The notes under the pieces are model-generated. The model was not told the DNA's origin. It did no database searches and worked only from the letters and a program-made list of their open reading frames with translations. This document shows, piece after piece, positions 36,640 through 64,000 of a stretch of 64,000 bases of DNA. The stretch covers positions 11,866 through 75,865 of the forward strand of contig DYIY01000010.1 of the NCBI GenBank assembly GCA_020723405.1, read 5' to 3'. The stretch is from Thiobacillus denitrificans. GTDB lineage: Bacteria; Pseudomonadota; Gammaproteobacteria; Burkholderiales; Thiobacillaceae. Each line of letters starts with the position of its first letter. The stretch's first letter is position 1. The translations under genes were made by a program, and so were the position numbers.

Positions 36640-37009
36640 GTCGATTCTCCTGTAAGCCGACCGAGTCGCTCTGGTACGAACGTATGTGTGATGCCTGCCT
36701 GCTAACCTGACAAAAAAGGTGGGAAATCAACAATTTCCAACCAAAGTAGGTATTTTTCTACCAAAAGCTGGCATAGACTACGTGCCTGACGGGGTTATTT
36801 CAATCCTTGTCTGTCATTTCCCTGGCGATGACCTGACGGATTCATGCAGTATTAGCAAATGCTAATGTTAGGCCGGGGAGGTTTTTTGAGGAAAAACCCG
36901 GGTTTGGCCTCCATGGCCAAGCCAACGCCGGCAGGCCCGGCCGGGATGCGGCGCCGCCGCTGCCGGTTACGGATGCCGTTTTTTCTTGCCAAGCTTGAAG
37001 GAGGCATCG
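36640..37009. other. Divergent promoter region, CbcL-like gene / fccAB-2
   Basis: A 370-bp region of noticeably lower GC than its surroundings. It holds the perfect palindrome at 36851-36866. A TGGTAGAAAA element (minus strand, 36756-36765) also occurs on the plus strand before fccAB-1 near 17427. No gene is supported. Confidence 0.5.
36851..36866. promoter_or_regulatory. Perfect palindromic operator upstream of fccAB-2
   Basis: ATTAGCA-AA-TGCTAAT, two 7-bp arms with a 2-bp spacer. An imperfect copy lies before fccAB-1 (17408-17423). Size and symmetry suit a small winged-helix repressor dimer. Confidence 0.6.
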
Positions 37010-37582
37010 ATGCGCAAGGGAGTTCTGGCCGTGGCCCTGTTCCTGACGGGCGGTTCGGCGATGGCGGCGGGTCCGGACGTGAGCCTGCTGGCACGTACCT
37101 GCAACAACTGTCACGGGGTGGGCGGCGTCAGTGCCGGAGCCTCCATGCCTTCCATCGGCGGGCTGCCCCGGGGCTATCTGGAAAGCGTGATGAAGCAGTG
37201 GAAATACGACGAGCGCGGCGCAGCCACCATGAACCGCATCGTCAAGGGCCTGTCCGACGACGAGATCAACGCCCTGGCTGCCTACTTCGCCAAGAAACCC
37301 TGGGTGCCCGTTTCCCAGCCCGTGGGCCCGGCCATGCACAAGAAGGGCAAGGCGGTCATCTCCGAGAATTGCGAGGACTGCCATGGTCCCACCGGCGGCG
37401 ATCCGGACGAGGATGCGCCGAAGATCAATGGCCAATGGGCCAAGTACATGGAGCTGGAACTGGATAAATACCGCGACGAGGAATTCCTGATGCCCCACCG
37501 CAAGATGAAGAAGACGGCCCGCAAGATGAAACCTGCCGAGGTGCCGGCCGCCGCCCATTATTTCGGCGCCCAGGGCCGCTGA
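37010..37582 (+). CDS. fccA: Flavocytochrome c sulfide dehydrogenase, diheme cytochrome subunit (copy 2)
   Basis: A 190-aa exported diheme cytochrome: signal peptide about residues 1-22 and heme motifs CNNCH (31-35) and CEDCH (121-125). Two tandem c4-like halves match the 21-kDa diheme FccA of purple sulfur bacteria. It is followed after 13 bases by fccB-2. It would pass electrons from the flavin subunit to a periplasmic carrier. AAGGAGGC just before ATG 37010 is a strong ribosome binding site. It differs from copy 1, which has only one heme. Confidence 0.93.
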   Translation: MRKGVLAVALFLTGGSAMAAGPDVSLLARTCNNCHGVGGVSAGASMPSIGGLPRGYLESVMKQWKYDERGAATMNRIVKGLSDDEINALAAYFAKKPWVPVSQPVGPAMHKKGKAVISENCEDCHGPTGGDPDEDAPKINGQWAKYMELELDKYRDEEFLMPHRKMKKTARKMKPAEVPAAAHYFGAQGR

Positions 37583-37595
37583 GGGAGAACGCATC

Positions 37596-38942
37596 ATGCA
37601 CAGCCAAATCGATCGCCGCGCCTTCCTCAAAGCCTTGTCCGCCGCTTCCGGCGCTTCCATCCTGAGCATTCCCCGGGCCCACGCCGCCAAGGCCAAGGCC
37701 CGGGTGGTGGTGGTGGGGGGCGGCTACGGCGGGGCCACCGCCGCCAAGTATCTGCGCCTCATGGACGATGACATCGAGGTCACCCTCCTGGAGCGGGAAA
37801 CCCTCTACACCTCCTGCCCCTTGTCCAACGAAGTCATGTCCGGGGAGCGGGACATCAAGACCCTGCAACGGGGCTACAAGGGTCTACAGAAGCACGGCGT
37901 CAACGTGGTCCACGACGAGGCCACGACCATCGACCCGGTGAAGAAGACCGTGGCCACGGCATCGGGCAAGACCTTCGCGTACGATTTCCTGATCCTGTCG
38001 CCGGGTATCGACTTCAACTTCGGCGCCGTGGAGGGCTACAGCAAGGAACTGGCCGACACCACCCTGCCCCACGCCTGGAAGGCCGGCCCCCAGACCCTGG
38101 CCCTGAAACAGCAGTTGGAGGCCATGCCCGACGGGGGCAAGTTCATCATCGCCGTGCCGCCCGGCCCCTTCCGCTGCCCGCCCGGGCCCTATGAGCGGGC
38201 TGCCCAGGTGGCCAACCACTGCATGCACCATGGCAAGAAGCGGGCCAAGGTACTGATTCTGGACGCCAACGATTCCTTCTCCAAGCGGCCCCTGTTCGAG
38301 CAGGCCTGGAAGGAACTCTACGGCTACGGTCCCGGCGGCATGATCGAATGGATCCCCGGTGCCCAGGACGGCAAGGTGGAGCGCCTCGACCCCAAGACCC
38401 TGACCTGCTACACGGGCTTCGGCGAACACCAGGGCGACGTGGTCAACATCATCCCGCCCCACCACGCCGGCAAGGTGGCCAAGGACCTGGGTCTGGCCAC
38501 CTTCAAGGACAAGTGGTGCGAGGTGAAGCCGGAGAACATGGAGTCCACCAAGTTGAAGGACGTGTTCGTCATCGGCGATTCCTGCGTGGGCGGCGAGCTG
38601 GCCACCAACAACGGTTTTCCCAAGTCGGCCCACATGGCCATCACCCAGGCCAAGGTGGTGGTGGCCAGCATCGTCGCCAAGGTCAACGGCCTGCCGCCGC
38701 CGGTGCCCATCTACACCAACACCTGCTACAGCGTGGTGGCGCCGGACTGGGGCTTCTCGGTGGTGCACCTCTACCGGGTGCAGAACGGCCAGTGGGTGTA
38801 CATCAAGGAAGGCAGCGGCATTTCGCCGGTGACCTTCGGCACCAAGGAACAGCCCAAGCCGGTGCCGCGCATCTACCGCAGGCTGGAGGTGGAATACGCC
38901 GACGGCTGGTTGCGCAACGTGCTGGCCGACGCTTTCGCCTGA
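37596..38942 (+). CDS. fccB: Flavocytochrome c sulfide dehydrogenase, FAD subunit (copy 2)
   Basis: A 448-aa FCSD flavoprotein. N-terminal DRRAFLKALSAASG is a Tat signal, and VVVVGGGYGGATAAKYL is the FAD fold. Key residues are Cys74 in TSCPLSN (covalent FAD attachment by analogy), Cys194 in RCPPGPYERA and Cys308 in KWCEV (redox disulfide). The C-terminal domain has NTCYSVVAPDWGFSVVHLYR (shown by NTCYSVV). It is predicted to oxidise sulfide in the periplasm with the diheme FccA. It is clearly paralogous to the 17892 gene but diverged along its length, so it is not a recent duplicate. Confidence 0.95.
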   Translation: MHSQIDRRAFLKALSAASGASILSIPRAHAAKAKARVVVVGGGYGGATAAKYLRLMDDDIEVTLLERETLYTSCPLSNEVMSGERDIKTLQRGYKGLQKHGVNVVHDEATTIDPVKKTVATASGKTFAYDFLILSPGIDFNFGAVEGYSKELADTTLPHAWKAGPQTLALKQQLEAMPDGGKFIIAVPPGPFRCPPGPYERAAQVANHCMHHGKKRAKVLILDANDSFSKRPLFEQAWKELYGYGPGGMIEWIPGAQDGKVERLDPKTLTCYTGFGEHQGDVVNIIPPHHAGKVAKDLGLATFKDKWCEVKPENMESTKLKDVFVIGDSCVGGELATNNGFPKSAHMAITQAKVVVASIVAKVNGLPPPVPIYTNTCYSVVAPDWGFSVVHLYRVQNGQWVYIKEGSGISPVTFGTKEQPKPVPRIYRRLEVEYADGWLRNVLADAFA

Positions 38943-56187: not shown

Positions 56188-56355
56188 GTGCTTGGCGGGG
56201 CGGGCCCATTGTGCGCCGCGCAAGATTGTCCTTGACAAGGCTCCGGCAGCGGATTTCACTCCGCCCGGTCATGCGGAGCCAACAGATCGGCATGGCGCCC
56301 GGGGCCGGCTCTGGTTCGGGTGGGCAGCAGCGGATTCACATACGAGGTCGCTAGG

Positions 56356-58050
56356 ATGAGCGAAGAAAAACTGGATACCCTGGAACCAGAGAAGCCGGCG
56401 GACGCGATTCCGGTGGCCGATGCCTTGAGCGATCTCTGGCAGGACCGGAGGCGCAGCGTCCAGCCCATCGATTTTCCCGACCGCCGCTCAGGCCAGGACC
56501 GGCGCAAGGAAGCCGCCCGGAGTCTGGGCAAGGGCATGAACCGGCGCGGGTCGGTGGTCCGCTGGAGCATCACCAAATCCGGCAAGTTCCACGCCCTGCT
56601 GCTCATGGCGGGGGACATGCTGGCCTTCACCCTGTCCTTCCTGGTGGCCTTCGTCCTGACCCTGCTCCTGGAGGGCCTGGAGGGTTGGTCCAAACTGGAA
56701 TGGCTGGCCCAGGACACCCGCCTGTTCGCCTATTACGCCCGTATCTTCCAGTTCATCCTGGCCACCCTGGTGGCGGTGAGCGTGTTCTGGATCTACGGCC
56801 ACTATTCCCGGCGCAGGCCTTTCTGGGATGAGTTGCACGACACCACCAAGCTGCTGCTCATCTTCGCCGCCGCCGAGGCCACCATTACCTTCGCCCTGGG
56901 CATGAACATGCCGCGGATCTGGCTGCTGGGCACCTGGGCGGTGGCCATCCTGCTGATTCCCCTGTCCCGCTATCTGATCAAGCGGGTACTCAAAGGCCAG
57001 GGCCTGTGGTCCCGCCCCACGGTCATCATCGGTACCGGCAAGAACGCCCAGGATACCGCTGCGGCCCTGGACCACGAGGTGGGCCTGGGCTACAACGTCT
57101 CGGTCTTCCTGGTGCCGCCCACCGCCTGGACCCGCAAGGAAGGCGACGGCGAGAGTTTTCCCCAGGGCATCACCGTCAACGGCCGGCGGGTGCCGGTCCG
57201 CCGCCTGGGCGACGAGCCGGAGCGCACCCTGCTCACCCTGGGCCGTCCCAACATCATCGTGGCCCTGGAATCCGACGACCTCTGGGAAGTGTCCAAGCTC
57301 CTCCTGGACAAGCACCTGCCCTATTCCAGCCTGAACATCGCCCCATCCATGCGCGGTCTGCCCCTGGTGGGCATGGAAACCCTGCACTTCTTCAAGCACG
57401 ACGTCATGGTCCTGCGCGTGCAGAACAACCTGGCCCGGGCCATCCCCCAGCGCATCAAGCGCCTGTTCGACGTGTCGGTGGCCGCCACCCTGCTGGTGGT
57501 GCTCCTGCCCCTGTTCGCCTTCCTGGTGCTGGGCATCCGCCGCTCCGGGCCCGGGGTGTTCTTCGGCCACACCCGCATCGGCAAGAACGGCGAGAAATTC
57601 AAGTGCTACAAGTTCCGCACCATGGTGCCCAACGCCCAGGAGGTGCTGGACAAGCTGCTGGCCAGTGACCCGGCCGCCAAGGAGGAGTGGGACCGGGACT
57701 TCAAGCTGCGCAACGATCCCCGGGTCACCCCCGTGGGGGCCTTCCTGCGCAAGACCAGCCTGGACGAGCTGCCCCAGCTCTGGAACGTCCTGAAGGGCGA
57801 GATGAGCCTGGTGGGGCCCCGTCCCGTCACCGAGGCGGAACTCAACAAGTACGCCGACAAGAAGGATTTCTTCCTGGAGGCCAAGCCGGGCATGACCGGC
57901 CTGTGGCAGGTGAGCGGCCGCAACGACGTCTCCTACGAGGAACGGGTCCAGTTGGACGCCTGGTACGCCCGCAACTGGCAGCTCTGGTATGACATCGTCA
58001 TCCTGATGAAAACGGTGAAGGTGGTGTTCGGCGACAAGAGCGCCTACTGA
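56356..58050 (+). CDS. Undecaprenyl-phosphate sugar phosphotransferase (WbaP/exopolysaccharide polyprenyl glycosylphosphotransferase)
   Basis: A 564-aa initiating transferase. The cytoplasmic N-terminus contains DRRSGQDRR. It is followed by about four helices (about 75-210), a Rossmann-like CoA-binding domain (VIIGTGKNAQDTAAAL, about 225-330) and the C-terminal bacterial sugar transferase domain with KRLFDVSVA, CYKFRTM, TSLDELPQLWNVLKGEMSLVGPRP (core DELPQLWNV, SLVGPRP) and GLWQVSGR. It loads the first sugar phosphate onto undecaprenyl phosphate at the inner membrane. ATG 56356 follows GCTAGG; ATG 56320 is a less likely start. A polymer export cluster is expected elsewhere. Confidence 0.93.
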   Translation: MSEEKLDTLEPEKPADAIPVADALSDLWQDRRRSVQPIDFPDRRSGQDRRKEAARSLGKGMNRRGSVVRWSITKSGKFHALLLMAGDMLAFTLSFLVAFVLTLLLEGLEGWSKLEWLAQDTRLFAYYARIFQFILATLVAVSVFWIYGHYSRRRPFWDELHDTTKLLLIFAAAEATITFALGMNMPRIWLLGTWAVAILLIPLSRYLIKRVLKGQGLWSRPTVIIGTGKNAQDTAAALDHEVGLGYNVSVFLVPPTAWTRKEGDGESFPQGITVNGRRVPVRRLGDEPERTLLTLGRPNIIVALESDDLWEVSKLLLDKHLPYSSLNIAPSMRGLPLVGMETLHFFKHDVMVLRVQNNLARAIPQRIKRLFDVSVAATLLVVLLPLFAFLVLGIRRSGPGVFFGHTRIGKNGEKFKCYKFRTMVPNAQEVLDKLLASDPAAKEEWDRDFKLRNDPRVTPVGAFLRKTSLDELPQLWNVLKGEMSLVGPRPVTEAELNKYADKKDFFLEAKPGMTGLWQVSGRNDVSYEERVQLDAWYARNWQLWYDIVILMKTVKVVFGDKSAY

Positions 58051-58133: not shown

Positions 58134-58541
58134 ATGCCCAGCCCATCCCTCGTCGATGCCTATGCCGCCAGCATCCTGTCCAGGATCGAACCCGGGATCC
58201 GCGCCAGCTTCACCGACGAGCAGGTGCGGGCCATCGCCGAGGCCCTGGCCTCCCGGCACGGCAAGGGGGCCCATGCTCTGGACGTGCGGGGCCTGATCAA
58301 GGTCTATTTCGCCACCTACTACTACGTCTTCCAGTTCGGCCGGGACCGGCGCATGGGCCGTCGCCGCACCGAGGTGGAGCGCAGCCGCAAAGCCCAATTC
58401 GCCGGCAACGTGCTGTTCTTCGTCATGGCCATGTCGCCGGTCATCCTGCTGCTCCTGGTGGGCTTGTATTTCCTCAAGGCCGCCCTGGGCATCGATCTGT
58501 TTCCCACCCATCTGCCCAACCTGCTGGGTCTGGGGCGGTGA
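58134..58541 (+). CDS. Small membrane protein of unknown function
   Basis: A 135-aa protein with a helical cytosolic N-terminus (residues 1-90, acidic then Arg-rich around 73-87) and one or two hydrophobic helices near 92-125 ending in PTHLPNLLGLGR. No family is recognised. It lies 83 bases after the glycosylphosphotransferase and directly before the sigma-54-controlled halogenase promoter. It probably belongs to the former transcription unit. Confidence 0.65.
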   Translation: MPSPSLVDAYAASILSRIEPGIRASFTDEQVRAIAEALASRHGKGAHALDVRGLIKVYFATYYYVFQFGRDRRMGRRRTEVERSRKAQFAGNVLFFVMAMSPVILLLLVGLYFLKAALGIDLFPTHLPNLLGLGR

Positions 58542-58565: not shown

Positions 58566-58582
58566 TGGCGGAATATCGACAG
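58566..58582 (+). promoter_or_regulatory. Candidate sigma-54 enhancer element (halogenase)
   Basis: TGGCGGAATATCGACAG differs from the sulfatase palindrome by about two substitutions and one base deletion. It lies about 85-95 bases upstream of the -24 element. Confidence 0.4.
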
Positions 58583-58667
58583 TTGATCAAGGTCAAGGTA
58601 GGCATGAACTATTTGCAATCTCTCACAAACCTTTACAATCCTTAACAAAACCCAAACATAATCGAAC

Positions 58668-58683
58668 TGGCACGGGGATTGCT
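58668..58683 (+). promoter_or_regulatory. Sigma-54 promoter of the halogenase gene
   Basis: TGGCACGGGGATTGCT is a full match to TGGCACG-N4-TTGCT with GG-N10-GC spacing. The expected start of transcription is near 58693, giving a leader of about 110 bases. Confidence 0.8.
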
Positions 58684-58805
58684 GATGGATAACCTGTTGC
58701 ATGTTGGTCATTGTGAAGTGAATCACCCGCTAGCCATGTAGGGCGACGTACCTCATAAAAGCGGACTTTCGGATGTGTTCCACTGAATTGAATGGAGGTT
58801 TTGCG

Positions 58806-60077
58806 ATGAAGACTCAGGTTGTGATCGTCGGCGGCGGCCCCGCTGGAACCGGACTGGCCATTTCCCTGCAAAAGCACGGGATCGAAAGCATCATTCTTGA
58901 AAAGGAAAGCTTCCCCCGTCTGCACGTGGGCGAGTCCATGACCGGCGAGTGCGGCGCCTCCGTGCGCGCCCTGGGTCTGGAAGAAGAGATGGGCAAGTAC
59001 AAGTACCCCATCAAGTACGGCACCATGGTGTACGGCACCGACGGCCGCAACAGCTTCTACGTGCCGGTGATGGGCCGCAAGAAGGACACCAACGAACTGT
59101 TCGCCCAGCCCACCTGGCAGGTGCGCCGTTCCGACTTCGACAAGATGCTGCTGGACGTCTGCGTGGACAAGGGCATCAAGACCATCAAGGGCACGGCCCT
59201 GGAAGTCCTGAAGAACGAGCAGGGCGTGCCCTGCGGCGTCACCTACAAGACCCCCGAAGGCGAGATGGGCGAAATCCGCGCCGACATGGTGGCGGACGCC
59301 TCCGGCCAGCACACCTTCCTGAGCAACAAGGGCGTGACCGGCAAGCGCATGATGGGCAAGTACGCCAAGCAACTGGCCATCTACTCCCACTTCAAGAACG
59401 TCAAGCGCCCCGAAGTCGGCGAGGACCCCAACCTGAAGACCGATGACACCATCATCTTCTACCAGAAGCGTAACCACTGGGCCTGGATGATCCCCATCAA
59501 CGACGAGCTGGTCAGCATCGGCGTGGTGACTCCCGCCGAGTACTTCCGTTCCAGCCGGGAGGACATGAAGACCTTCCTGAAGCGGGAAATGATGTCCCTG
59601 AACCCGGAGCTGGCCAAGCGTCTGGAGGGGGCCGAGATGGTGGAGGATGCCCATTCCTGCGCCAACTATTCCTACCAGATCCCCGATTGGGCCGGTCCCG
59701 GCTTCATCTGCCTGGGTGACGCCCACCGCTTCGTGGACCCCATCTTCTCCCTGGGCCTGCACTTCACCCTGGTGGAATGCCGCAAGGCCGCCGACGCCAT
59801 CGCCGACTACATGAACGGCAAGTGCGCCGACATGGCCAACCCCTTCGAAGAGCACATGAAGTTCTGCGAACTGGGCATGGACAACGCCCAGGTGCTGCTG
59901 GACGTGTTCTGGGCCTATCCGTTCGCCTTCTCCCTGTACATCCGCGACGCCAAGTACCGGGACGGCTTCATCGACCTGTTCGCCGGCCGCTGCTACGTGA
60001 CCGATCCGCCCGCCTGCATCCCGGCCCTGCGCCGCCTGCAGGCCGAGGTGTCCAACGACGAGGCCGTGGCCGCCTGA
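58806..60077 (+). CDS. Flavin-dependent halogenase-like FAD monooxygenase
   Basis: A 423-aa FAD enzyme. The dinucleotide motif VVIVGGGPAG is at residues 5-14, HVGES at 40-44 is typical of phenol/pyrrole-type halogenases, and a KxG motif has Lys70 as candidate catalytic lysine. The halogenase signature WxWxIP is intact (WAWMIP, 225-230), as is the FxxPxxSxG motif (309-317, FVDPIFSLG). These features separate it from geranylgeranyl reductases. It should act with free FADH2 from a separate reductase on a small aromatic or carrier-bound substrate. GGAGG at 58794-58798 supports ATG 58806. It is controlled by a sigma-54 promoter and followed by a terminator. Adjacent genes suggest a pyrrole substrate. 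Confidence 0.82.
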   Translation: MKTQVVIVGGGPAGTGLAISLQKHGIESIILEKESFPRLHVGESMTGECGASVRALGLEEEMGKYKYPIKYGTMVYGTDGRNSFYVPVMGRKKDTNELFAQPTWQVRRSDFDKMLLDVCVDKGIKTIKGTALEVLKNEQGVPCGVTYKTPEGEMGEIRADMVADASGQHTFLSNKGVTGKRMMGKYAKQLAIYSHFKNVKRPEVGEDPNLKTDDTIIFYQKRNHWAWMIPINDELVSIGVVTPAEYFRSSREDMKTFLKREMMSLNPELAKRLEGAEMVEDAHSCANYSYQIPDWAGPGFICLGDAHRFVDPIFSLGLHFTLVECRKAADAIADYMNGKCADMANPFEEHMKFCELGMDNAQVLLDVFWAYPFAFSLYIRDAKYRDGFIDLFAGRCYVTDPPACIPALRRLQAEVSNDEAVAA

Positions 60078-60105
60078 GACAGGATGGGCTGACATCTGCA
60101 GAACC

Positions 60106-60137
60106 GGGGCCGGCCCTTTGACCGGCCCCATTCTTTT
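60106..60137 (+). terminator. Rho-independent terminator after halogenase gene
   Basis: Stem GGGGCCGG/CCGGCCCC with an eight-base loop and then ATTCTTTT. It partly separates the halogenase transcript from the acyltransferase genes. Confidence 0.8.
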
Positions 60138-60196
60138 GCGCTTCTTAACCCGGATGGACAGGTCTTTTGATCGATCCGTCCATCGGATTCCCAGCC

Positions 60197-61108
60197 ATGA
60201 GCCAAAACAACAAACCTGAAGCTCCTGTGGTTGCCCCGCGTCCCCGGCAACGTCTGCTTGCCCTGGCCGGCTTCATTCCCTACGGGTTGGGTTCACGCCT
60301 GCTCGGCCTGTTCTTCAGTAACCCTCTGGTGCAACGCTTCCTGTTGCGGGCTCCCCGTCGCCAATTCCTGGGCCTGTGCAGGCGGGCCGATGTGCTGGCC
60401 AAGCCGGCTTCCCAGTTCGTGGTCCATCTGTTTTCCCGGTTCACGATTCCCTGGCGGGTCGGCGTCCTGTCCCACGCCAGCGATGGGGAGTTCGAGCGCT
60501 GGGTCCACGTCGACAATGCCCAGCTCCTGGCCAAGCTCCAGGCCGAGGGCAAGCCGGTGCTGCTGGTCAATTGCCACACCGCCATCGCCCGTCTGACGCC
60601 CCTGGCCGTGCATCGCCTGGGCCACGAACTGGCGGTGATCGAACCGGAGCCCTACCTGCGCCTCATCGGTGCCCGGGATGCCGACAAGATCCGCTCCATC
60701 ACCCTGCGCGGCCAGGGTGAGAAATTCTGGATGAAGGAGCTTTATCAGGCCCAGAAGGTGTTGCTGGGCAAAGGCATCGTCCATCTGGCCCTGGACGGGC
60801 ACCAGGGCTCGGGGGGCGTGGAACATGCCTTCCTGGGCAGCAGACGCCTGTTCCACGTGAGCATGGCCCAGTTGGCCATCCAACTGGGTGCCGCCATCGT
60901 CCTCGTCCGGGCCTTGCTGGACCAGGACGGCAGGGTGAACCTGCACTTCACGGGCCCCCTGGATACGGGAACTTCCGAGCAGCCCGCAGAGTCACGGCTT
61001 GCCCGCTTCCTCGATCAATACGTCGCCTATCTGGAAGACCTGTGGCGCACCGAGCCAGGCAACATCTCGCCCCGGCATCTGCTGCACTTCATGCAGTCCG
61101 CCGGATAG
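60197..61108 (+). CDS. LpxL/HtrB-like acyltransferase homologue 1
   Basis: A 303-aa protein related to lauroyl/myristoyl acyltransferases of lipid A and lysophospholipid acyltransferases. Recognisable parts are the NCHTAIARL box and DGHQGSGGVEHAFLGSRRLFHVS (shown by DGHQGSGG). In the catalytic HX4D/E motif the acid is replaced, reading H-TAIA-R, so classical acyl transfer is doubtful or the substrate differs. A hydrophobic N-terminal segment (about 20-45) may bind membrane. ATG 60197 is used; TTG 60167 with a better spaced GGACAGG is an alternative. It is a paralogue of the next gene. Confidence 0.75.
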   Translation: MSQNNKPEAPVVAPRPRQRLLALAGFIPYGLGSRLLGLFFSNPLVQRFLLRAPRRQFLGLCRRADVLAKPASQFVVHLFSRFTIPWRVGVLSHASDGEFERWVHVDNAQLLAKLQAEGKPVLLVNCHTAIARLTPLAVHRLGHELAVIEPEPYLRLIGARDADKIRSITLRGQGEKFWMKELYQAQKVLLGKGIVHLALDGHQGSGGVEHAFLGSRRLFHVSMAQLAIQLGAAIVLVRALLDQDGRVNLHFTGPLDTGTSEQPAESRLARFLDQYVAYLEDLWRTEPGNISPRHLLHFMQSAG

Positions 61109-61220
61109 TCCATTTGTCCCGGTCCAATTCAAACAAAAAATGCCGATTCTTATAGGAGCACTCCCCAGCGCACATTGGAAGGTTTCATTCAGTAGTCTGA
61201 TTTTTGCGAAGGAAGATCCT

Positions 61221-62180
61221 GTGGCTGTCGATAATAATGTCCGCCCTCTCCGGGGGTGGAAGCGCCTTGTGCTGGAAACGGCAAGCAAGGTGCCTTATGG
61301 ACAGGGGGTTCGTGCCCTGTCCCTGTTGCTCAACAATCCGCTTGGGCAGCGTCTGCTGGTGCGTAAGCGGCGCTTCTATCTGGCCAGGATGATCCATGCC
61401 CTGGGGGTGTCCGCCGGGGTTGACCAGGCGGCAACCCGCAACGTGCTCTGCAACGATGCCTTGCCCTGGGTCGTGAATGCCCTGTCCCGCTGCGACGAAG
61501 CCGGATTCCGCCGCTGGGTGACCGTGGAGGGAGAGCCGGTGCTGGATGCGGCCAAGGCCCAGGACAAGGGGCTCCTGGTGGTCAACTGCCATTCGGGTGT
61601 GTCCCGGCTGGTGCCCCTGCTGCTCATGCTCAAGTGGGGCGATGTGTACGCCATGGAACCCGAGGCCTGGCTGTCCCGCATGGGGGTGCCAGGGGGTGCC
61701 CAGGTCCATTCCATCACCATGCGTGGCGATGGGGAGAAATTCTGGCTGCGCCAGATCTTCCAGGCCAACCGGGTCATGGCCGAAAAGAAGACCATGCACG
61801 TGGCTATGGACGGCCTCCAGGGCACGGGGGGCAAGGAACGCAATTTCCTGGGGCGCAAGCGGGTGTTCCACGTGGGTCTGGCGCAGATGGCCATCGCCCG
61901 GGGCACGCCCATCATCCAGGTGCTCACGCGCATCGACGAGACCGGCAGGGTCAGCATCCGTTATCGGGATCCCCTGGCGGGCGCCGGAGCGGATTTGAAT
62001 GAGGAAGCCCGGCTCGGGTATTTTCTCGACAACTACCTGTCGGCCCTGGAAGCGCTCTGGCTGGAAGATCCGGGCAATATCGCCGTGCGCCACCTGCGTC
62101 ACTATCTGACTTCTGAACCAATCCCCCCTGAAAAGGGGATAGCATCCAAAAACCGGGAAGAGGAGCCTGAGAACGTATGA
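61221..62180 (+). CDS. LpxL/HtrB-like acyltransferase homologue 2
   Basis: A 319-aa paralogue of the preceding gene, with NCHSGVSRL and MDGLQGTGGKERNFLGRKRVFHVG (shown by DGLQGTGGKERNF) in matching places. The catalytic box again reads HX4R rather than HX4D/E. GTG 61221 follows GAAGGA with good spacing; ATG 61140 would extend into a region without family similarity. The stop TGA overlaps the ATG of the adenylation gene (ATGA), so the two are translationally coupled. The last 20 residues are encoded partly by a C-rich dispersed repeat. A role in transferring the product of the adenylation pathway is inference. Confidence 0.75.
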   Translation: MAVDNNVRPLRGWKRLVLETASKVPYGQGVRALSLLLNNPLGQRLLVRKRRFYLARMIHALGVSAGVDQAATRNVLCNDALPWVVNALSRCDEAGFRRWVTVEGEPVLDAAKAQDKGLLVVNCHSGVSRLVPLLLMLKWGDVYAMEPEAWLSRMGVPGGAQVHSITMRGDGEKFWLRQIFQANRVMAEKKTMHVAMDGLQGTGGKERNFLGRKRVFHVGLAQMAIARGTPIIQVLTRIDETGRVSIRYRDPLAGAGADLNEEARLGYFLDNYLSALEALWLEDPGNIAVRHLRHYLTSEPIPPEKGIASKNREEEPENV

Positions 62181-63736
62181 ACAACAACACGCTGCATGCC
62201 ACCGTGCTGAACCTGGATCCCGCCTGGACCGACCGGCCGGCGGTGAAGATGCAGAAGGGGGCGGTGACCTATGGCCAGTTCCGCGATCTGGCCGTGCGCC
62301 TGGCCCAGCTGCTGGCCGATCGGGGCTGCCGGCGGGGTGACCGGGTGGCGGTCTGCCTGCCCAAGAGCATCGATTCCGTCACGGCCCTCATGGGCGTGAT
62401 GCTGTCCGGTGCCGCCTACGTGCCGGTGGACCCCACGGCCCCCGCCCAGCGCCAGGCCACCATCGCCCGGCTGGCCGGGGCGAAGTTCATCATCACCACC
62501 CCGGAGCTGGCGGCGGCCATGCGCGACGTGGCCGGCGAGCTGGAAGGCGAACCGACGCCCCAGATCGAAGTGGCCCCCGTGGGCATCGGCGACGGCATCC
62601 GCGCCCTGGTGGCCGACGTGGCGCCCGTGGCGCCGGAAGCCGGCGCGGAAGTGGGCGCCGAAGACCTGGCCGCCATCCTGTTCACCTCCGGTTCCACCGG
62701 CGTGCCCAAGGGCGTGAGCCTGACCCACGGCAACATCCTGGCCTTCGTGGACTGGACCGTGGACGCCTTCAAGTTCACCGCCGAGGACCGGCTCACCAGC
62801 CACGCCCCCTTCCACTTCGATCTGTCCACCATGGACCTCTACACCACCTTCCGGGTGGGGGCCTCGGTGTTCATCCTGGACGAGGTGCTGGTGCGCTTCC
62901 CCGCCGTGCTGGCCAAGATCATCGAAACCGAGAAGATCACCTCCTGGTACTCCGTGCCCACCGCCCTGCGCCTGCTGGAAGAGAAGGGCGCCCTGGGCCG
63001 CCGGGACCTGTCCAGCCTGCGGCAGATCTTCTTTGCCGGCGAGGTGTTCCCGGTGCCGGCCCTGCGCAAGGTCATGGAAGCCTTCCCGGGCGTGGAATTC
63101 ATCAATCTCTACGGGCCCACGGAAACCAACGTCTGCACCTATTACCGCATGCCCGGCGTGCCTGGCGACGACGTGCTGGACATCCCCATCGGCCTGCCCT
63201 GCGAGCACTACGTCATCACCATCCGCGACGAGGCGGGCAACATCCTGGCCCCGGGCCAGAGCGGCGAGATCTTCGTCGCCGGCCCCGGCTGCACCCCGGG
63301 CTACTGGCAGCGTCCGGACCTGACCGAGAAGTGCCATTTCGACGGGCGCATCGACACCTACCGCACCGGCGACTTCGGCTACTGGCTGCCCGACGGCAAC
63401 ATCCGCTTCCAGGGCCGCAAGGACGCCCAGGTGAAGATCCGTGGCCACCGGGTGGAGTTGATGGAGGTCGAGAACGTGATCCTCAACCATCCGGAGATCA
63501 AGGAAGCCGCCGCCGTGCTCCATTCGCCCCCGGACGGGGAGCAGGAACTCTATGCCTTCGTGGTGGCCCAGGCCGGCTGCGAGATGGACGAGACCAAGGT
63601 CTACGGCCAGTGTTCCAAGTTCCTGCCCCACTATGCCGAGCCCCACAAGGTGGTGATCATGGCCGACTTCCCCCGTACCTCCACCGGCAAGATCGACCGC
63701 CAGGGGCTCAAGGCCCTGTGCGGCGCGCCGGCCTGA
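62177..63736 (+). CDS. Stand-alone amino-acid adenylation enzyme, prolyl-AMP ligase-like
   Basis: A 519-aa ANL-superfamily enzyme without carrier domain. A3 is FTSGSTGVPKG, A5 YGPTETN, A7 YRTGDFGY, A8 FQGRKDAQVKIRGHRVE, and A10 STGKIDR with Lys505. The A4 Asp that binds the amino group is present (FDLSTMD, Asp215), so an alpha-amino acid is expected. By hand alignment to GrsA the code is D215 L216 M219 Y258 F285 A287 L311 V319 C320 K505, that is DLMYFALVCK. Prolyl-AMP ligases of pyrrole pathways (PltF/RedM) have DLLYLALVCK as I recall it. It would load proline on a separate carrier protein not seen here. Confidence 0.88.
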   Translation: MNNNTLHATVLNLDPAWTDRPAVKMQKGAVTYGQFRDLAVRLAQLLADRGCRRGDRVAVCLPKSIDSVTALMGVMLSGAAYVPVDPTAPAQRQATIARLAGAKFIITTPELAAAMRDVAGELEGEPTPQIEVAPVGIGDGIRALVADVAPVAPEAGAEVGAEDLAAILFTSGSTGVPKGVSLTHGNILAFVDWTVDAFKFTAEDRLTSHAPFHFDLSTMDLYTTFRVGASVFILDEVLVRFPAVLAKIIETEKITSWYSVPTALRLLEEKGALGRRDLSSLRQIFFAGEVFPVPALRKVMEAFPGVEFINLYGPTETNVCTYYRMPGVPGDDVLDIPIGLPCEHYVITIRDEAGNILAPGQSGEIFVAGPGCTPGYWQRPDLTEKCHFDGRIDTYRTGDFGYWLPDGNIRFQGRKDAQVKIRGHRVELMEVENVILNHPEIKEAAAVLHSPPDGEQELYAFVVAQAGCEMDETKVYGQCSKFLPHYAEPHKVVIMADFPRTSTGKIDRQGLKALCGAPA

Positions 63737-63758
63737 CGCTCCCGAGGAAAGGACGAAC

Positions 63759-64000
63759 TTGAAGATTGCGGTTTGCTTGAAGCAGGTGCCCTCCACCAGC
63801 GCGCCCCTGCAACTGGATGCCGCCACCCGCTGGGTGCGGGAGGCGGAAACGGCCTTCGAAACCAACGCCGCCGACAACAATGCGGTGGAAGCCGCCCTGG
63901 CCCTGCGGGACCAGTTGGGCGGCGAGGTCATCGTCGTCAGCCTGGGCCCGGAGCGGGCCACGGAAGCCCTGCGGGAAGCCCTGGCCAAGGGGGCCGACCG
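63759..64000 (+). CDS. etfB: Electron transfer flavoprotein beta subunit (3' partial)
   Basis: The first 80 codons of EtfB, running off the right edge. TTG 63759 follows GAGGAAAGGA and gives MKIAVCLKQVPSTSA, then NAADNNAVEAALALRDQ and VVSLGPERATEALREALAKGAD (shown by SLGPERATEALREAL), all typical of EtfB. It lies 22 bases after the adenylation gene. ETF accepts electrons from acyl-CoA dehydrogenases. In a pyrrole pathway it could serve the flavin dehydrogenase that oxidises prolyl-carrier protein. It could also be a general beta-oxidation ETF. Confidence 0.92.
   Translation, partial: MKIAVCLKQVPSTSAPLQLDAATRWVREAETAFETNAADNNAVEAALALRDQLGGEVIVVSLGPERATEALREALAKGAD

Follow-up and report, generated by a model that had tools for sequence, protein, structure and literature searches.

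INTRODUCTION

Known diffusible antibiotics and signals include halogenated pyrroles. In Pseudoalteromonas, bmp1-4 encode a halogenase (Bmp2), a dehydrogenase (Bmp3), a ligase (Bmp4) and an acyl carrier protein (ACP) with a thioesterase (TE) domain (Bmp1), and the pyoluteorin and marinopyrrole pathways, with PltA and Mpy16, share the logic of halogenating a carrier-bound pyrrole. In Dlt D-alanylation, and in the pyrrolyl ester transfer to sugar of clorobiocin and coumermycin, an acyl group derived from an amino acid is passed from a carrier protein to a glycan or sugar hydroxyl. Here we describe a gene cluster at the end of a 64,000-nucleotide stretch of Thiobacillus denitrificans DNA (hereafter the window; assembly GCA_020723405.1, contig DYIY01000010.1, named C36 here, positions 11866-75865; the genome is 99% complete, with 4.15 Mb on 42 contigs), which is predicted to encode the same activities as bmp1-4. 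The system appears to be a variant of the thiotemplated halopyrrole pathway, set in a polysaccharide locus and accompanied by LpxL-like acyltransferases (LPLATs). We give about an even chance to a pathway in which proline is converted into a (poly)halopyrrolyl thioester and moved by these acyltransferases to a glycan or glycolipid of the cell envelope.

The cluster departs from the described systems in several respects. As compared to bmp1-4, its carrier protein is a stand-alone protein of 83 aa without a TE domain, lacking the ACP-TE feature of that cluster type, and it adds genes for an electron-transfer flavoprotein (ETF), an ETF-quinone oxidoreductase (ETF-QO), three LPLATs and sulfotransferases. 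Unlike the pyoluteorin, marinopyrrole and anatoxin-type pathways, it has no polyketide synthase among its annotated genes. The plan of acyl transfer is shared with Dlt, clorobiocin and coumermycin, whereas the transferases are unrelated, being LPLATs here and membrane-SGNH proteins, with no match to PF03062, in relatives. A literature search of partial coverage, which excluded most subscription papers and returned some mostly irrelevant results, found no description of such a system; PMC12833800, PMC12645471 and PMC10770391, in the portions available, deal with other halogenases or pathways.

RESULTS

Gene content of the cluster

An earlier note, made from the window alone, had pointed to a halogenase-like enzyme with intact WxWxIP and FxxPxxSxG motifs, a prolyl-AMP-ligase-like enzyme and etfB on one strand, together with two acyltransferase homologues. 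All of these genes are there, but the start given in the note, 58566, lies 240 bp upstream of the first of them. We read contig C36 past the window end (L004, C36:75000-94999), carrying the window numbering on beyond 64000. To the right of 64000, where the note had expected etfA, an acyl-CoA-dehydrogenase-like gene and a carrier protein, all three are present, the second being a prolyl-carrier type, along with ETF-QO and a third acyltransferase. The genes of the cluster are as follows, those from etfA onwards lying beyond the window, in L004.

58806–60077, forward strand: HAL, FAD-dependent halogenase of the Bmp2 clade
60197–61108, forward strand: LPLAT1, acyltransferase of LpxL/PatA fold
61221–62180, forward strand: LPLAT2, acyltransferase of the LPLAT1 subfamily
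62177–63736, forward strand: ADEN, predicted stand-alone prolyl-AMP ligase
63759–64526, forward strand: etfB, cut by the window end at 64000
64523–65515, forward strand: etfA
65521–67158, forward strand: ETF-QO
67200–68345, forward strand: predicted prolyl-ACP dehydrogenase
68383–68634, forward strand: carrier protein, 83 aa
68768–69730, forward strand: LPLAT3, third acyltransferase
69727–70650, 70647–71480 and 71483–72409, forward strand: three sulfotransferases

From HAL through the third sulfotransferase, all of the genes lie on one strand, with intergenic gaps of -4 to +133 bp. The GTG start of LPLAT2 was picked by us on the basis of an upstream GAAGGA.

A halogenase of the Bmp2 clade

In the PDB, the best solved relative of HAL is 5bva (E 5.2e-84, 285.6 bits; 40% identity), which we take to be Bmp2, followed by 5buk (6e-46), presumably Mpy16, and PltA (5dbj, 4e-45). 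Other flavoproteins score far below 5bva, namely 3nix (111 bits), the reductase 3oz2 (41 bits) and the p-hydroxybenzoate hydroxylase 1cc4 (21.5 bits). HAL matches Pfam Trp_halogenase with 72.3 bits (cut-off 21) and passes none of the 25 NCBIfam models listed. Its GxGxxG (GGGPAG), WxWxIP (WAWMIP, residues 225–230) and FxxPxxSxG (FVDPIFSLG, residues 309–317) motifs are intact, and it keeps Lys70 in a PxKxG stretch, presumably the catalytic lysine.

The phylogenetic tree comprised 71 rows: 67 of the 83 HAL-like open reading frames (ORFs), HAL and three typed chains. Not included were the ORFs from 11 of the Pseudoalteromonas loci, that of L031, which duplicates L037, and those matching over less than 290 aa; the tree was midpoint-rooted and the tool warned of long branches. 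HAL falls into a 37-row clade (support 100/99) that also contains Bmp2 of Pseudoalteromonas and halogenases from uncultured phyla, while PltA, Mpy16 and ChlB4 lie outside it. The earlier note had named PltA and Bmp2 for such a comparison and had considered a grouping of the FAD enzyme with reductases or hydroxylases, which is not what the tree gives. Within the clade, WxWxIP and FxxPxxSxG are found in all 37 rows and Lys70 in 34.

The chain 5bul, a triple mutant of 5bva, differs from it at Y, F and A, replaced by S, V and W. These are the Y302S/F306V/A345W changes that, according to the available part of PMC5577590, turned Bmp2 into a mono-halogenase, and the identification of 5bva fits for this reason. 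At the three positions, which govern multiple bromination by Bmp2, HAL has L, F and A, the equivalents of F306 and A345 being as in Bmp2. Judged by these comparisons, HAL is likely to be a pyrrole-type halogenase, and the product is likely to be halogenated. No flavin reductase was seen from HAL to the sulfotransferase genes, and FADH2 for HAL would therefore need a source elsewhere.

Activation and oxidation of proline

ADEN resembles the L-proline--carrier ligase 6o6e (E 4.8e-87), the six higher rows of the PDB search being synthetase chains. Its specificity residues (mapped by motif onto the GrsA numbering) are D L M Y F A L V C K. All ten are the same in the ADEN of the congener described below and seven are the same in Bmp4 (L063; D L L Y I A F V C K), a further likeness to the bmp system. 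The carrier protein matches PF00550 with 26.2 bits (cut-off 20.8), has the phosphopantetheine-serine motif LDSLS, and matches 6cxt_A and the peptidyl carrier proteins of pyrrole pathways, such as PigG.

The best solved relative of the dehydrogenase is the prolyl-ACP dehydrogenase 4irn (E 6e-136, 456.8 bits), which we take to be AnaB of anatoxin-type pathways; 6cxt_B (334.7 bits) comes next, and then 5zw0, presumably the prolyl-carrier dehydrogenase PigA. The dehydrogenase retains a MEWER stretch in the catalytic-Glu region. As far as the available portion of PMC10849742 goes, 6CXT is the structure of Bmp3, to which the window dehydrogenase is less near than to 4irn; the ligase-carrier-dehydrogenase logic is described there with an essential glutamate, and pyrrole formation precedes halogenation in known pathways. 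The genome has three acyl-CoA-dehydrogenase matches, and the one here groups with prolyl-carrier dehydrogenases; with the carrier protein found beside it, we rejected the beta-oxidation operon that the earlier note had weighed. On sequence grounds, the proline-to-pyrrole part of the pathway appears well supported. The end product of the dehydrogenase itself may be pyrrole (four-electron oxidation) or dehydroproline (two-electron oxidation).

Given this ambiguity, the dehydrogenase might stop at dehydroproline, as in anatoxin-type pathways, and the FAD enzyme might be a hydroxylase or have another role, so that the envelope would carry dehydroprolyl or plain pyrrolyl groups. The higher score against 4irn than against 6cxt_B favors such a course, as do four genomes of the order in which ADEN and the dehydrogenase are accompanied by a membrane-SGNH protein and no halogenase was seen, making halogenation optional in the wider group. 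We nevertheless consider it distinctly unlikely, since HAL retains Lys70 and both halogenase motifs, sits in the clade of the brominase Bmp2 and matches other flavoproteins with far lower scores (at most 111 bits against 285.6), and since members of this clade are found in several phyla next to genes for ADEN, ACP or the dehydrogenase.

The halogenase and ETF genes set the cluster apart from the 4irn pathway. Its etfB and etfA are the sole two ETF matches in the window genome; since this pair is the genome's only ETF, the cluster appears, from its gene content, to supply its own route from dehydrogenase to quinone through ETF and ETF-QO. Among the 23 genomes of the genus, ETF scores above the cut-off in three (the window genome, G415 and G404) and does not reach it in the other 20. 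ETF was rejected as a strict marker of the cluster, because it occurs in G404, which lacks this halogenase, and because G415 has another pair besides that of the cluster.

LpxL-like acyltransferases

The three acyltransferases (ACYLTRANSFERASES) resemble PF03279, the family of LpxL, LpxM and PatA. LPLAT1 and LPLAT3 exceed its cut-off of 22.3 bits (29.0 and 32.7 bits), and LPLAT2, which has no Pfam or NCBIfam match of its own, is 37% identical to LPLAT1. The fold was tested for LPLAT1: its AlphaFold2 model (mean pLDDT 84.2) matches PatA (1.1e-8) and LpxM (1.7e-8) in Foldseek. Like LpxL, LpxM and PatA, LPLAT1 has the catalytic His; His127 and Asp200 do not vary among the nine sequences of alignment A2. 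In contrast, and at odds with the LpxL family, the acidic residue of HX4(D/E), which we take to be the catalytic pair motif, is replaced by R, R and K in LPLAT1, LPLAT2 and LPLAT3, respectively, and no fatty-acid genes are among the annotated genes of the cluster. The catalytic residue of LpxM replaced in 5knk is Glu127, which we equate with the acidic position by motif, not by an aligned structure.

Elsewhere in the genome (L091, G000:C12:53356-55046), two neighboring housekeeping genes encode LpxL-like proteins, one with HX4E and the other with Asn at the acidic position. Loss of the acidic residue as proof of new chemistry is weakened by the latter protein. From their sequences, the LPLATs look active but altered. 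Since the annotated genes include no carrier protein other than the pyrrolyl one, pyrrolyl-ACP would be the natural acyl donor.

Polysaccharide-locus setting

Two further genes precede HAL.

56320–58050, forward strand: WbaP-type undecaprenyl-phosphate sugar phosphotransferase (NCBIfam TIGR03022, 475 bits, cut-off 403; PF02397, 223.7 bits)
58134–58541, forward strand: 135-aa protein between WbaP and HAL, with no Pfam or NCBIfam match

On the 3' side of the sulfotransferases, a glycosyltransferase on the opposite strand is followed by Poly_export/SLBB, Wzz, Polysacc_synt and Wzy_C proteins. With WbaP before and these genes after it, the gene set therefore lies inside a Wzx/Wzy-type polysaccharide locus, from which an envelope glycan or glycolipid may be proposed as the acyl acceptor. 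The 135-aa protein has a hydrophobic stretch and adjoins the halogenase in the congener too (79% over 29 aa in L038), and is possibly an unrecognized part of the system. Apart from the cluster, the window carries cytochrome c and flavocytochrome-c-sulfide-dehydrogenase-like genes (36986–38942, recognized by eye), consistent with a sulfur oxidizer.

Conservation in a congener

The only other genome of the genus with HAL, G415 (JAGUXX01, metagenome-assembled genome (MAG) DeMMO4_3), carries the genes on three contigs. The first (L031/L037) reads HAL (93% identity), LPLAT1 (70%), LPLAT2 (55%) and ACP (51%). L038 contains the 135-aa protein, another HAL (78%), ADEN (73%), ETFB (65%), ETFA (62%) and ETF-QO (70%). 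L030 contains the end of ETF-QO, the dehydrogenase (86%), ACP (80%), LPLAT3 (58%), the three sulfotransferases (82–90%) and the glycosyltransferase (77%). L038 and L030 are probably a single locus, as both end inside ETF-QO. Given the separate second HAL and ACP, the congener would have two modules where the window genome has one. The idea that its polysaccharide locus had lost the carrier protein was dropped when tblastn located the latter between the dehydrogenase and LPLAT3.

This conservation bears on whether the cluster is decayed or silent, with no present function. Its rarity, at two of the 23 genomes of the genus, is in line with such a fate. However, the reading frames are open and the genes are tight and partly overlapping, and they are 51–93% conserved in the congener, in the same order except that LPLAT1, LPLAT2 and a second HAL and ACP are on another contig; decay is thus very improbable.

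Relatives in other phyla and co-occurrence

A scan of the genome collection by two peptide patterns, which relatives having neither would escape, gave 53 loci: 28 outside Pseudoalteromonas (HAL 43–93% identical, two of them from the congener), 14 in Pseudoalteromonas (37–39%) and 11 at 28–33%. Taxon names are those of the MAG records, in which mis-binning is possible. ADEN is present in the examined DNA of eight of the 28 loci (L038–L042 and L048–L050). Three acyltransferase families were sought: LPLAT, membrane-SGNH and two Acyl_transf_3 proteins. Acyltransferase-like genes, belonging to three kinds unrelated to each other, occur in six of these eight loci; the remaining two are contigs of 6.4 and 4.6 kb. 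LPLAT is found in L040 (weakly, 33.5 bits with a cut-off of 22.3) and twice in L042, on the strand opposite HAL, with ACP, ADEN and the dehydrogenase; Acyl_transf_3 in L039 and L041; and membrane-SGNH in L048 and L050. With L037, L062 and L078 added, an acyltransferase-like gene occurs in nine of the 28 loci. In the 14 Pseudoalteromonas loci, neither profile (LPLAT or membrane-SGNH) and neither Acyl_transf_3 protein gave a match, and L089, of the 28–33% group, matches membrane-SGNH. Polysaccharide genes also flank L041, L048 and L036.

Among 399 genomes of the order, the prolyl-ACP dehydrogenase (E <= 1e-110) occurs in seven, the LPLAT profile (E <= 1e-15) in two and the membrane-SGNH profile (E <= 1e-60) in four, with both profiles built partly from the very same loci and up to five and two candidates per genome scored. 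All six transferase-positive genomes are within the seven, and in the remaining one, G126, the dehydrogenase match lies at the end of a contig. The informative part is that neither profile matches at these cut-offs in the other 392 genomes.

The four membrane-SGNH genomes (L033, L034, L035 and L036, from G092, G140, G342 and G039) have ADEN, the dehydrogenase and a membrane-SGNH protein of ~750–890 aa; ACP is matched in the first three and recognizable by eye in L036. No halogenase lies beside their dehydrogenase genes, and no HAL match was found genome-wide at E <= 1e-40. The acyl-transfer theme therefore seems wider than halogenation, and these sets are possibly a non-halogenated pyrrolylation system. 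The SGNH part of the protein falls below the Pfam cut-off in the three scanned (20.7–27.7 against 32.9 bits), and its membrane part has no Pfam family. An MBOAT identity for the ~850-aa protein was rejected, as PF03062 matches in none of three genomes even at E 10; its PDB matches are weak, the best being an SGNH-type esterase (E 0.0064), and its structural model is poor (mean pLDDT 51.5).

Other arrangements were also noted. In L058 (1–3040) and L060 (8565–11647), a halogenase of the PltA/Mpy16 clade stands directly before one of the Bmp2 clade and a carrier protein that may serve both types of halogenase. L039 (1–16525, Chloroflexi) has large ORFs resembling nonribosomal peptide synthetases (by eye) around dehydrogenase-ADEN-HAL-ACP-Acyl_transf_3, apparently the same module within a larger biosynthetic cluster. 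L032 (4688–14266, G132) reads LPLAT-HAL-HAL-ACP-MFS transporter-ADEN-dehydrogenase, the halogenase-like pair being of another clade and one of the two having WCWHIL in place of WxWxIP; a sulfotransferase-like ORF lies further on.

DISCUSSION

We propose that ADEN would activate L-proline and load it onto the 83-aa carrier protein, whereupon the acyl-CoA-dehydrogenase-like enzyme would oxidize the carrier-bound prolyl to a pyrrolyl group, with electrons passing via the cluster ETF and ETF-QO to quinone. HAL would then halogenate the carrier-bound pyrrole, possibly more than once. The genes from HAL to the sulfotransferases, when scanned, gave no match to a thioesterase family profile, and offloading is for this reason assigned to the LpxL-like acyltransferases, which would transfer the (halo)pyrrolyl group from the carrier protein to a hydroxyl on an acceptor in the cell envelope, forming an ester. 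Most likely, this acceptor would be the sugar repeat or a glycolipid belonging to the same locus, and the three sulfotransferases may modify it as well. From gene content, family placement, motifs, specificity residues, conservation and co-occurrence, we infer each reaction with its donor and acceptor, the halide and the number of halogens.

The pyoluteorin-type logic put forward in the earlier note holds up, as far as sequence can tell, for proline activation, the carrier, prolyl dehydrogenation and a pyrrole-type halogenase, but the nearest halogenase is that of the bmp bromopyrrole pathway. The note had also suggested a lipid-linked or acylated pyrrole as product; acyltransferases are indeed near the pathway, but the polysaccharide locus and sulfotransferases favor a glycan or glycolipid of the envelope as acceptor over an acylated pyrrole in free form.

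A free or lipid-linked halopyrrole would nonetheless be formed if the LPLATs built a halopyrrole-bearing membrane lipid, or if the pyrrolyl group were hydrolyzed off, and the polysaccharide setting were coincidental. The fold neighbors of LPLAT1, PatA and LpxM, act on lipids, the MFS transporter in L032 suggests an exported small molecule, and the 19.7-kb congener contig with HAL-LPLAT1-LPLAT2-ACP has no match to the glycosyltransferase or sulfotransferases of the cluster. In the part of PMC5577590 available, the Pseudoalteromonas bromopyrrole is offloaded by hydrolysis from the TE-bearing Bmp1. The window cluster, by comparison, has no annotated thioesterase, and in both species of the genus the sulfotransferases are kept together with ACP and LPLAT3, next to polysaccharide genes. 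Relatives, moreover, have Acyl_transf_3 or membrane-SGNH proteins, near polysaccharide genes in L041, L048 and L036. On balance, we regard a free or lipid-linked product as unlikely.

Several observations tell against transfer of a halopyrrolyl group to the envelope. At position 302, HAL has Leu in place of the Tyr of Bmp2, and support for its direct pairing with Bmp2 inside the clade is weak (87/60). For the dehydrogenase, the top score is to an enzyme whose pathway, by the title of a cited reference, goes to carrier-bound dehydroproline, and the curated models for PigA and RedW give 456 and 433 bits, short of their cut-offs of 500 and 650 bits. The HX4(D/E) position is acidic in none of the ten acyltransferases examined, so that their chemistry may differ. 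Of the 28 HAL loci outside Pseudoalteromonas, 19 have none of the sought acyltransferases, many being short contigs or lone halogenases. LPLAT3 alone weakly matches G010 (7e-11, 28% identity), a genome without a dehydrogenase match. The shared origin of profiles and loci, the small number of candidates scored per genome and the presence of HAL in so few genomes of the genus count in the same direction.

More broadly, several phyla may esterify envelope polysaccharide or glycolipid with (halogenated) pyrrole-2-carboxyl groups on a Dlt-like plan, with one pyrrolyl-ACP module joined to any of three unrelated acyltransferase types (LPLAT, membrane-SGNH or Acyl_transf_3) and, in this sulfur oxidizer, with its own ETF/ETF-QO chain to quinone. 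This proposal is tentative, the chances being somewhat against it. The clade also opens a set of pyrrole-type halogenases, 43–52% identical to HAL, in MAGs named Chloroflexota, Verrucomicrobiota, Gemmatimonadota, Acidobacteriota and Planctomycetota. The ETF chain of the cluster suggests that prolyl oxidation can be coupled to respiration instead of O2. If the proposed transfer is true, the combination of a halopyrrole module with envelope acyltransferases would represent a novel kind of surface chemistry and add a further biological source of bound organohalogen to those known.

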